Part shown: one piece after another, positions 3,835 to 13,951 of the stretch
Layout of the letters: each line of letters opens with the position of its first letter
Position numbering within the stretch: the stretch's first letter is position 1
IMG/VR virus record: IMGVR_UViG_3300047554_000378
Span: 1-30,126 of that record
Length of the DNA stretch: 30,126 bases
Source: a virus
Reading direction: 5' to 3' (one strand)
Made by a program: the position numbers and the translations under genes
The notes under the pieces: model-generated
Database searches by the model: none
Seen by the model: only the letters and a program-made list of their open reading frames with translations
Told to the model about the DNA's origin: nothing

Positions 3835-4959
3835 ATGTCTGATGAGAATTTGGTACCCGAAGAGCGTGACTTAGCGAACGCTCTAATTACCATTGCCGAA
3901 AAGTATGGCAAGTTCAACGAGGACCAAACAGGCATCTGGGCTGATTATCATGAGCCAGAAGATAACCCTTACGCCGAGATGGGCGTTAAGTGTGGCAACT
4001 GCGTTCTATACCGCGGTGGCGAAGAGTGTGCTGTTGTTGCTTTTAAGGTTGACCCAAACGGTTACTGCCGTTTTGCGGTTCTACCTGATGGCACGGTTGA
4101 CCCAAGCAAAGCACCTGAAGGCAAGACTCCTGGCAACCACGAAGTCCTAACTGCCACTGCAGGTTCTAAACCAGCTCCTAAGAAGGACCAGATTAAGGGT
4201 TCAGACAAGAACAAAAAGGGTTCTGCTGATACTGGTAAGGGCGTCGACTTCACCGAGGCAATCATCACCGCCCTTGAGAAGAAGGTTACAGAACACAATA
4301 AGAAGGCTCCAGCTGGACGCAAGGTTACTCTTGCTAAGTTGAAGGCTGTCTATCGTCGCGGCGCAGGTGCGTTCTCAACTTCTCACCGCCCAGACCAGAA
4401 CCGAAACTCGTGGGCAATGGCTCGCGTTAATGCGTTCTTGAAGCTTGTTAAGTCTGGTAAGCCAACCAACCCTAAGTACACTTCAGACAACGACCTGCTT
4501 CCAAGAATGCACCCGCGCTCCAGCGAAGCTTCTAACTTCTCACCACTAATCGCATCTCTTGTTGCAGCTGCAAACACCGAAGAGTGTCCACCTGCAACTC
4601 AAGACATTGTTCTTAATATTGAAAATCGCCAGAACGCCATCGACAATGTTGGCTATGGCCCACTAAACCCAGACGAACCAAACGAAGAGTTCTGGCAAGA
4701 GAAGGCTGACCGCTGGAAGACAACTCCAGTAGAAGCAAGCAAGAGCATCTGTGGCAACTGCGTCTTCTTTGTTAGAACCCCTAGCATGCTTGACTGCATC
4801 TCTAGCGGTATCGAAGAAGGCGGTTCTGGAGAACAAAACGCTTGGGACGCAATCGACCAAGCAGAACTAGGTTTCTGTGAAGCACTCGACTTCAAGTGTG
4901 CTGCTTCTAGAACATGTAACGCATGGGCTGCTGGTGGCCCCATAACAGAGGAAAAGTAA
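3835..4959 (+). CDS. Cysteine-rich protein with DUF6321-like domain
   Basis: The 374-residue product has three parts. The N-terminal part (to about residue 85) carries a CGNC pair and two further cysteines ending in GYCRF. The middle (about 137-222) matches the pattern I associate with phage DUF6321 proteins: a helix, then RRGAGAFSTSHRP and NSWAMARVNAFL. The C-terminal part repeats the CGNC motif near residue 306 and adds four more cysteines. The paired cysteine groups suggest duplicated metal or Fe-S sites. Related domains occur in structural or head-associated proteins of environmental phages, but a lysis or packaging role cannot be excluded. It overlaps the endolysin gene by one base (TAATG) and has its own leaderless-type promoter. 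Confidence 0.6.
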   Translation: MSDENLVPEERDLANALITIAEKYGKFNEDQTGIWADYHEPEDNPYAEMGVKCGNCVLYRGGEECAVVAFKVDPNGYCRFAVLPDGTVDPSKAPEGKTPGNHEVLTATAGSKPAPKKDQIKGSDKNKKGSADTGKGVDFTEAIITALEKKVTEHNKKAPAGRKVTLAKLKAVYRRGAGAFSTSHRPDQNRNSWAMARVNAFLKLVKSGKPTNPKYTSDNDLLPRMHPRSSEASNFSPLIASLVAAANTEECPPATQDIVLNIENRQNAIDNVGYGPLNPDEPNEEFWQEKADRWKTTPVEASKSICGNCVFFVRTPSMLDCISSGIEEGGSGEQNAWDAIDQAELGFCEALDFKCAASRTCNAWAAGGPITEEK

Positions 4960-12330: not shown

Positions 12331-12548
12331 TTTGACTTCTTCACGTTCTTCTCTTCAAAACCGTACTTGCGTAGGTACTGAACAATGTACTTGAGTGCTC
12401 TCCAGTCAGAGGGCGTGCTTGCAGAGAAGAAGAAGGCTCCGCCTGGCGAAGTCCACTTGTAGTGGTTGTTTTTATTGGCTGAAACTATCCAGCCCTGCTT
12501 CTCAGCATTCTTTATTAGCTCTTGAAGCTCTTTGCGATATGCGGCCAT
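12327..12548 (-). CDS. HicA-like small dsRBD-fold protein
   Basis: Starting at the ATG at 12548, preceded by AAGGAAAGACAG, the product is 73 residues. An N-terminal helix (ELIKNAEKQGW) is followed by NNHYKWTSPGG and ASTPSDWRALKYIVQYLRK, the alpha-beta-beta-beta-alpha layout of HicA-type mRNA interferases, including a His in the second strand. No HicB antitoxin is adjacent, so it may act alone or counter a host system. It is the first gene after the large structured RNA and has its own promoter. Confidence 0.55.
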   Translation of the reverse strand: MAAYRKELQELIKNAEKQGWIVSANKNNHYKWTSPGGAFFFSASTPSDWRALKYIVQYLRKYGFEEKNVKKSK

Positions 12549-12583
12549 CTGTCTTTCCTTACTACGTACTGGCGTGTAAAGAC

Positions 12584-12613
12584 AAGGTAGCACACATTGG
12601 TGGTGGATGTCAA
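12584..12613 (-). promoter_or_regulatory. Promoter TTGACA-18-TACCTT before the HicA-like gene
   Basis: Minus strand: TTGACA (12613-12608), an 18-base spacer, and TACCTT (12589-12584). The start codon lies about 35 bases downstream with a Shine-Dalgarno, so this mRNA is leadered. It would drive the small-gene operon, tRNA-Asp, tRNA-Thr and the cupin gene. Confidence 0.55.
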
Positions 12614-12633
12614 ATCCATTTTAAAAGTTTGTT

Positions 12634-13432
12634 GTGGTGCACGACTGACTAGGTCGCCACCACCGCCCCACTACCGAACTACCTCAGGGGAACTAGCACC
12701 ATTGCGAGCCTTTTCCGACTACTAACGGCTTTGGTATGCCGATTTCCAACCTTCGGGGGAACCACCTACACCACCCTCTTAACGTCGGTGGTCCACGCTA
12801 GAGCAGTCACGCTCAAGATATTAAGGCTCGCAGGAAACCCTGCCAAACGAGAAGAATCCATGGCCATGGTAATCTTCCGAGCCTTAGCGGACTGCGAGGA
12901 ATCGCACCTCGGCAACTCCATACGGAGTACCTCTAGCTACCTTATCCGCGGTGGTCAGGTAGCACAGTCCATCAGGTCGTATTCGCAATGCGGGAGACCA
13001 AACCCTTAACTAGCCGTTAGGTCTTGCGGTTACTCGGATTACTCTCTGCATAGCCGTAAACGGGTTTATTACATTTATCCTAGCACCTGCCGCAGCAAAG
13101 GGTGCTAAGACCAGCCGTTCCGTAGGCTGCCATCAATCTGCGGTCGATGGCTCACGAAGGGAACGTCTGTTTGCTGCCTCACCTGGACTCGAACCAGGAA
13201 CTTACGAGTTAACAGCTCGTCACTCTGCCAATTGAGTTATAAGGCAATGCACAGACTGCTCCCGATTGGGAACTCCCTATCCTAAGAGCAATCTGGCAAG
13301 GCGGGTCACCCTTGCGGGATTCCTGCATTTGGTACAGGGATTTGCGTACTGCGATAGTTACTAACACCTTCGGTTCTTTCGCGTCCCTGCTCTGTCTCGG
13401 CTGAGTTAGTTGTCGCTACACCGAGCACATTG
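12634..13432 (-). ncRNA. Large, highly structured non-coding RNA (GOLLD-like candidate) with nested tRNA-Asn
   Basis: About 800 bases without a believable gene carry many perfect helices on the minus strand. From the 5' side: ACTAAC/GTTAGT, CAGGGA/TCCCTG, GCAAGG/CCTTGC, GTCTGT (13256-13251) pairing with ACAGAC (13170-13165) around tRNA-Asn and extended by GGGA/TCCC, TAGCACC/GGTGCTA, ACTCC/GGAGT, and TGCGAGCCTT (12832-12823) pairing over 10 bp with AAGGCTCGCA (12712-12703). The first of these bases can instead pair with AAGGCTCG at 12885-12878. A final bulged hairpin (12663-12634) followed by a T4 run may be the 3' end. Size, a nested tRNA, phage context and closeness to tRNAs fit GOLLD RNA; ROOL or a new class is possible. 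It probably shares the tmRNA transcript. Exact ends are uncertain. Confidence 0.7.
13174..13246 (-). tRNA. tRNA-Asn (anticodon GTT), nested in the large structured RNA
   Basis: Acceptor TGCCTTA/TGAGGCA (one G-U), anticodon stem ACGAG/CTCGT with loop CTGTTAA (anticodon GTT), and T arm CCTGG TTCGAGT CCAGG are standard. The discriminator is G, as for Asn. CCA is not encoded. Its flanks, GTCTGT and ACAGAC, pair with each other, so the tRNA sits at the tip of a helix of the surrounding RNA. Confidence 0.92.
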
Positions 13433-13782
13433 TGGAGATGGGGGGAGTCGAACCCCCGTCCTGACAAAGTCTATTTGTTCTTCTACACGCTTAGGCAGTT
13501 TGCTTTGTGTTCCCGATGGTTGACCTGCCAGACATCGAGTCAGATTCAATTACGGCTTGAATCGTGGCCGTGGTGCAAGTTGTCCTATTTGTTTAAAGCC
13601 TGACTGCCCACTTAGGACTAGTGCTTTGTCAGGGGTTCTAGAAGCTTTGTCGGTTAAGACTAGGCAGCTAGAGCGAATGCAGAACGAGATTCAGCATTTA
13701 TTTTTTGTAGCGGTTTTACAAGACTCCGCTATCTTGGCGTGCTTCACCAAACTTCAGATGCCAGTCGAAACCAGGCATCCCC
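13433..13782 (-). ncRNA. ssrA: Transfer-messenger RNA (tmRNA)
   Basis: The 5' end GGGGATG pairs with CATCTCC at the 3' end, forming the tRNA-like acceptor. The 5' TGGTTTCGAC motif and the 3' T arm (GGGGG TTCGACT CCCCC) are typical of tmRNA. The tag frame, 13695-13660, reads AESRSAFALAA then TAG; the ALAA end is the usual proteolysis signal. Length, about 350 nt, is normal for one-piece tmRNA. CCA is not encoded. tmRNA frees stalled ribosomes and tags unfinished proteins. It is followed directly by the large structured RNA and preceded by a TATAAT promoter element. Confidence 0.93.
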
Positions 13783-13805
13783 ATTCACTATTTAGTTGTA
13801 AGTAG

Positions 13806-13811
13806 ATTATA
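13806..13811 (-). promoter_or_regulatory. Consensus -10 (TATAAT) for tmRNA and the downstream RNA
   Basis: A perfect TATAAT on the minus strand lies 23 bases before the mature tmRNA 5' end, leaving a short leader for RNase P to remove. The -35 region is weak. It overlaps the 3' flank of the small basic protein gene. Confidence 0.6.
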
Positions 13812-13816
13812 GCAGA

Positions 13817-13951
13817 TTACTGCTTGGTAACCAGACGACGCTTAATTGCGTCAAAAATCTTTGGACGCTTCTTTGAAGCCTTACCGTTTGGACGGTTGTC
13901 GTTGGTAGCTGGGCCAGACTTCTGTCCGCCTCCGCCTTTTCCTTTAGCCAT
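13817..13951 (-). CDS. Small Lys/Gly-rich basic protein
   Basis: The 44-residue product begins MAKGKGGGGQKSGP and continues with many Lys/Arg residues (KASKKRPKIFDAIKRRL), suggesting a nucleic-acid-binding peptide. Its ATG overlaps the stop of the previous gene (TAATG). It ends just upstream of the tmRNA promoter. Confidence 0.55.
   Translation of the reverse strand: MAKGKGGGGQKSGPATNDNRPNGKASKKRPKIFDAIKRRLVTKQ

Follow-up and report, generated by a model that had tools for sequence, protein, structure and literature searches.

A tmRNA-headed region of a probable actinobacterial phage likely encodes a modular array of small structured RNAs

The window, a 30,126-base IMG/VR virus record from a freshwater phage, carries on its minus strand, between the tmRNA and the next gene, a series of small structured RNA modules that recur, singly and in other combinations, in related viral contigs. 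We regard it as likely that this region, 12634-13430, forms the distal portion of a stable-RNA operon headed by the tmRNA in an actinobacterial phage, organized as a tRNA-punctuated array of independent small RNAs freed by tRNA processing. The region is bounded by the tmRNA (13782-13430, minus strand) and the next minus-strand gene and encloses a tRNA-Asn (13246-13173, minus strand). Read along the minus strand, the order is tmRNA, module A (96 nt), a spacer, tRNA-Asn, a second spacer, module B, module B2 and module C (184 nt). The gene set of the window includes a WhiB-like regulator and a ribonucleotide reductase (RNR) whose best match among phage records is that of Actinomycetia phage DSL-LC01 (76%), and the host is therefore probably an actinobacterium. 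The features of the region are as follows.

13430..13782, minus strand: tmRNA with tag AESRSAFALAA, head of the array (Rfam RF00023, 139.6 bits; ARAGORN)
13334..13429, minus strand: module A, 96 nt (four sequences: window, L094, L007, L099)
13425-13421/13400-13396, minus strand: hairpin of module A
13410-13405/13365-13360, minus strand: pseudoknot of module A, from loop to downstream
13390-13384/13340-13334, minus strand: closing stem of module A
13247..13333, minus strand: window-specific spacer U1, containing the local hairpin 13295-13284/13263-13252 of 12 bp (fold z -3.45)
13173..13246, minus strand: tRNA-Asn (GTT) (ARAGORN; Rfam tRNA, 64.2 bits)
12971..13172, minus strand: spacer U2, window-specific, with strong local hairpins (z -2.97 for 13172-13040, -1.36 for 13110-12973)
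12889..12970, minus strand: module B, tRNA-like cloverleaf (fold z -3.81; homologues L031, L100)
12970-12965/12894-12889 and 12911-12895, minus strand: acceptor and T-arm (loop UGCGAUU) of module B
12823..12885, minus strand: module B2, two hairpins enclosed by the closing stem AAGGCTCG/CGAGCCTT (12885-12878/12830-12823) (four sequences)
12633..12816, minus strand: module C, six helices and a proposed pseudoknot 12799-12795/12785-12781 (five sequences)
12584..12613, minus strand: promoter-like TTGACA-18-TACCTT preceding the next gene (start codon 12548), read by eye and not reported by the consensus scan

An earlier note on this DNA had described the region as gene-free structured RNA, one ornate molecule of roughly 800 nt with the tRNA-Asn nested inside it. 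The absence of a believable gene, the structured character of the RNA and the internal tRNA-Asn, called by both ARAGORN and Rfam, were all borne out; the single large molecule and the two helices singled out in its support were not. The minus strand of 13431-12620 has a folding energy of -308.8 kcal/mol (z -3.87) and beats 20 of 20 shuffles. Because folding energy alone is weak evidence, homologues were sought via the adjacent protein, the RNR gene and DNA patterns; the pattern scans behind the resulting set require exact matches, and more distant relatives would escape them. Rfam scans of the region (gathering score and E<10) returned the tRNA, the tmRNA and sub-threshold chance rows only, and the blastn matches listed against phage records were to tRNA-Asn or due to chance.

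Module C is present in the window, in L006 (and a second contig, L008), L007, L090 and L094, with 80-88% identity to the window across phages. Across five sequences, its 33 pairs are formed in 99.4% of cells and 11 of them are changed on both sides, a covariation score reached by 0 of 500 shuffles; when partners are slid by 1-3 columns, no pair is changed on both sides. This compensatory change in homologues is what is expected of C as an independent structured RNA. Folding energy does not reveal the module (z -0.36 for 12816-12690) whereas covariation does. A pseudoknot within C, AGCGU/ACGUU, was spotted by eye and pairs in 24 of 25 cells; re-dealing the strands among the sequences does equally well in roughly 10% of trials, which leaves the pseudoknot supported without being proven. 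Between the window and L006, C is 88.0% identical, compared with 76.7% for the tmRNA and 76.5% for the neighbouring gene. A covariance model of C (R1) matches four other viral records with E values of 4e-70 to 4e-64, all four having been used in building it. Scanning GTDB genomes with the C pattern gave three loci, and R1 found no match in the genomes of L095 and L096, in locus L097 or in 198 genomes of the same class.

The evidence for module A is of the same kind. Its 18 pairs, including the pseudoknot, are formed in 94.4% of cells across four sequences, seven are changed on both sides, and none of 500 shuffles attains this score. A follows the tmRNA in L094, lies between tRNA-Asp and tRNA-Thr in L007 and stands just before tRNA-Ser in L099. 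Neither A nor C matches an Rfam family, whether the gathering score or a limit of E<10 is applied. This, together with the strong compensatory change, bears out one alternative offered by the earlier note, a new class of RNA: A and C represent two candidate new RNA families supported by covariation, and the RNAs of the array are mostly undescribed. For B2, the stem is paired in 100% of cells in four sequences and two of its pairs show changes on both sides; as 27 of 500 shuffles score as high, the evidence for this stem is moderate.

Module B resembles a tRNA without being called as one: neither ARAGORN nor the Rfam tRNA model (RF00005) reports a tRNA at 12889-12970. It has acceptor, D-like, anticodon-like and T arms, with U, C and A at T-loop positions 54, 56 and 58, and differs from tRNA in carrying G at position 55 and, in the window copy, an anticodon-like loop of 4 nt. 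The cloverleaf, in which the acceptor adjoins the T arm, is kept through base changes, consistent with a tRNA-like structure. The same cloverleaf plan recurs with different pairs in M1t, the tail of module M1, in L015, L037, L040 and L044, and L100 fuses the head of that module (M1h) to the B tail. In seven B and M1t sequences, with segments chosen by hand, all acceptor, D-like and T-arm pairs form; one anticodon-like pair fails in L031 and L100.

The two spacers keep A and B of the window from direct contact with tRNA-Asn. The U1 fold is equalled by 0 of 200 shuffles, and U1 is missing from L094, in which some 5 nt separate A and tRNA-Asn. The U2 pattern has no exact match in IMG/VR. With no homologues found, the structures of both spacers rest on folding energy alone. 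Both U1 (13333-13247) and U2 (13172-12971) fold strongly and may be further modules.

In related viral contigs the modules turn up one at a time and in altered order, their ends mostly 0-5 nt from those of a tRNA or tmRNA. L094, the nearest relative by synteny, has the order tmRNA-A-tRNA-Asn-B2-C and lacks 373 of the 798 nt of the region; relative to it, the window has two insertions at module borders, of 87 and 286 nt. In L006 the order is tmRNA-B2-C-tRNA-Leu-D-tRNA-Asn, in L007 Asn-C-Gly-E-Asp-A-Thr and in L090 Asn-C-Asp-E-Thr, B2 being placed in these orders by alignment. Modules D, E, G, H, K and M1 are found repeatedly where related contigs carry tmRNA and tRNA genes, and many lie 0-5 nt from tRNA ends. 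Comparison of the phages shows that modules are gained, lost and swapped between them at tRNA boundaries.

Several of these elements have features of their own. D, G, H and the known manA RNA line up one after another between tmRNA and tRNA-Gly (L032:15063-15869; L031:15133-15721; L019:12745-13449). H is tRNA-like but lacks a D arm, and D, G and H match no Rfam family in the scans made. Module K (L009:6268-6540; L010:15100-15379) is about 280 nt long and follows tRNA-Asn, and by eye its copy in L009 ends in a tRNA-like acceptor and T arm. The manA model (RF01745) scores above cut-off in 7 of 16 related records (55-67 bits), mostly within the same arrays; in the window it gives no row, and none of A, B, B2 and C matches it. 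The isolated Rhodococcus phage Francesca (L109) contains manA at 3984-4166 (72.9 bits) with no feature annotated beneath, between a tRNA-Met ending at 3980 and a tRNA-Lys starting at 4168. In related phages as in Francesca, this structured RNA of about 180 nt occupies gaps in tRNA arrays, a place between two tRNAs that misfits its proposal as a 5' UTR element (PMC2864571). The other tRNA gaps of Francesca are comparable in length, several of them 120-230 nt with no matched Rfam family; apart from manA, the module profiles gave only one weak B match in this phage, between tRNAs (E 0.006). In a 23-kb stretch of lake phage DSL-LC01 around the shared RNR gene, the matches seen were confined to tRNAs and a single coding stretch.

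Taken together, the compensatory change in C, A and B2, the cloverleaf common to B and M1t, the reshuffled module order and the occurrence of manA in the same gaps argue for an array in which A, the tRNA-like B, B2 and C would be independently folding small RNAs strung between tmRNA and tRNA genes. A single transcript may run from the tmRNA onward: that the region shares the tmRNA transcript is likely but unproven, given that it lies on the same strand, that A begins at most about 5 nt from the tmRNA end and that no terminator-like site was found. A simple consensus scan of 12540-13900 returned no terminator-like site, including after C, and one promoter-like match only, at chance level and inside B2. 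As modules mostly lie within a few bases of tRNA ends, ordinary processing of tRNA 5' and 3' ends (by RNase P and 3' tRNA nucleases) would release each of them as a separate stable RNA, B perhaps serving as an extra processing signal or tRNA mimic. The freed RNAs may act in trans during infection; as a guess, their targets could be the translation or tRNA machinery or tRNA-targeting defences. Against this model, A and C are known from only four to five sequences, the homologue-free spacers U1 and U2 part A and B from tRNA-Asn in the window, no terminator was found after C, and the order A-Asn-B2-C common to the window and L094 could mean joint action.

That common order also counts in favor of a different reading, in which the region is one multi-domain GOLLD/ROOL-like RNA of about 800 nt with C as conserved 3' domain and a variable, tRNA-containing 5' part, perhaps forming a multimer. 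The layout does resemble GOLLD, which has a conserved 3' region, a less conserved 5' region and sometimes tRNAs in its linker, and is found in phage tRNA islands (PMC12286853); here, too, tRNA-Asn lies inside and tmRNA upstream, and the whole region folds better than shuffles. The likeness to GOLLD (RF02032) is thus one of layout, as a large structured RNA of phage tRNA islands with a conserved 3' part, whereas the conserved 3' module here is just 184 nt long and other phages have it by itself. ROOL, too, is a pseudoknot-containing phage RNA located close to tRNA islands (PMC12286853), differing from the region in that no ROOL row appeared at E<10 when all 4227 Rfam families were scanned. The GOLLD model matched neither the window nor 16 related records; a search of 296 genomes and 14 controls was equally empty, leaving the GOLLD negative without a positive control and its sensitivity not shown. 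For the GOLLD-like membership put forward in the earlier note, neither the GOLLD nor the ROOL model gave a match in the window, either by gathering score or with the limit set to E<10. The long non-coding RNAs of phages K and ICP1, which have been compared with GOLLD/ROOL on grounds of location or size (PMC9241854, PMC7567579), are likewise long phage RNAs; the passages considered describe them by location, length and abundance. Against a single molecule, C directly follows tRNA-Asn without B or B2 in L007 and L090, A occurs without C in the examined stretch of L099, and L094 has tmRNA, A, tRNA-Asn, B2 and C without the 87- and 286-nt pieces. The long-range contact offered as glue fares no better. 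This 10-bp pairing of 12832-12823 with 12712-12703 is present in the sequence and not conserved in homologues; it joins the 3' strand of the B2 stem to a piece of C, and some 10-bp pairing arises in 16.5% of shuffles. GGCTCGC, on the 12712-12703 strand, is unchanged in all five C copies while the B2 strand tracks its local partner or is absent, identifying the local stem as the conserved one; the competing partner at 12885-12878, which the earlier note had also named, is thus the pairing that holds (100% of cells, four sequences, two double changes, equalled by 27 of 500 shuffles). Similarly, the helix GTCTGT/ACAGAC proposed to enclose the tRNA is expected by chance in about 5% of cases in the flanks, shares its 5' strand with the 12-bp local hairpin 13295-13284/13263-13252, and no homologue bearing those flanks was found. 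As relatives carry the same pieces in other combinations, the region is probably a modular array and not one giant RNA cage, and we consider the single large RNA unlikely.

Two further readings carry far less weight. C ends about 85 nt before the start codon of the gene at 12548-12327, and manA, found in the same arrays, has been proposed as a 5' UTR element (PMC2864571), so that C and its neighbours might be cis-regulatory, riboswitch-like leaders of this downstream gene. The promoter-like site between C and the gene counts against such a function, as it is common to relatives with other elements there: a similar TTGACATC...TGTGTGCTA stretch precedes the homologous gene in L006 and L015, where tRNA-Asn comes before. 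Moreover, in L007, L090 and L006 a tRNA and not a coding gene follows C, making the leader very improbable. Slightly less probable still is that the spacers are decaying, functionless remnants of tRNA genes. The resemblance of B to a cloverleaf rejected by tRNA models fits this idea, which is strongly disfavoured by the compensatory changes in A and C and, less strongly, in B2, and by the better conservation of C than of the neighbouring gene.

In the modular array preferred here, small modules, each open to testing by itself, occupy the kind of place typical of GOLLD, ROOL and phage K RNAs. We know of no function for these large phage RNAs beside tRNAs. More tentatively, and with somewhat less than even confidence, we suggest that phage tmRNA/tRNA islands may serve generally as cassettes for small structured RNAs acting in trans, drawn from many unrelated families (manA among them) that are exchanged at tRNA boundaries and set free when the tRNAs are processed. 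If so, the gaps between tRNAs of large phages would be RNA genes and not spacers. The region also supplies a cloverleaf-like module, B, that escapes tRNA finders. The appearance of manA, proposed as a 5' UTR element, as a module between tRNAs calls that reading into question, and its presence in such a gap of Francesca, an isolated phage of Rhodococcus, makes the matter accessible to experiment.
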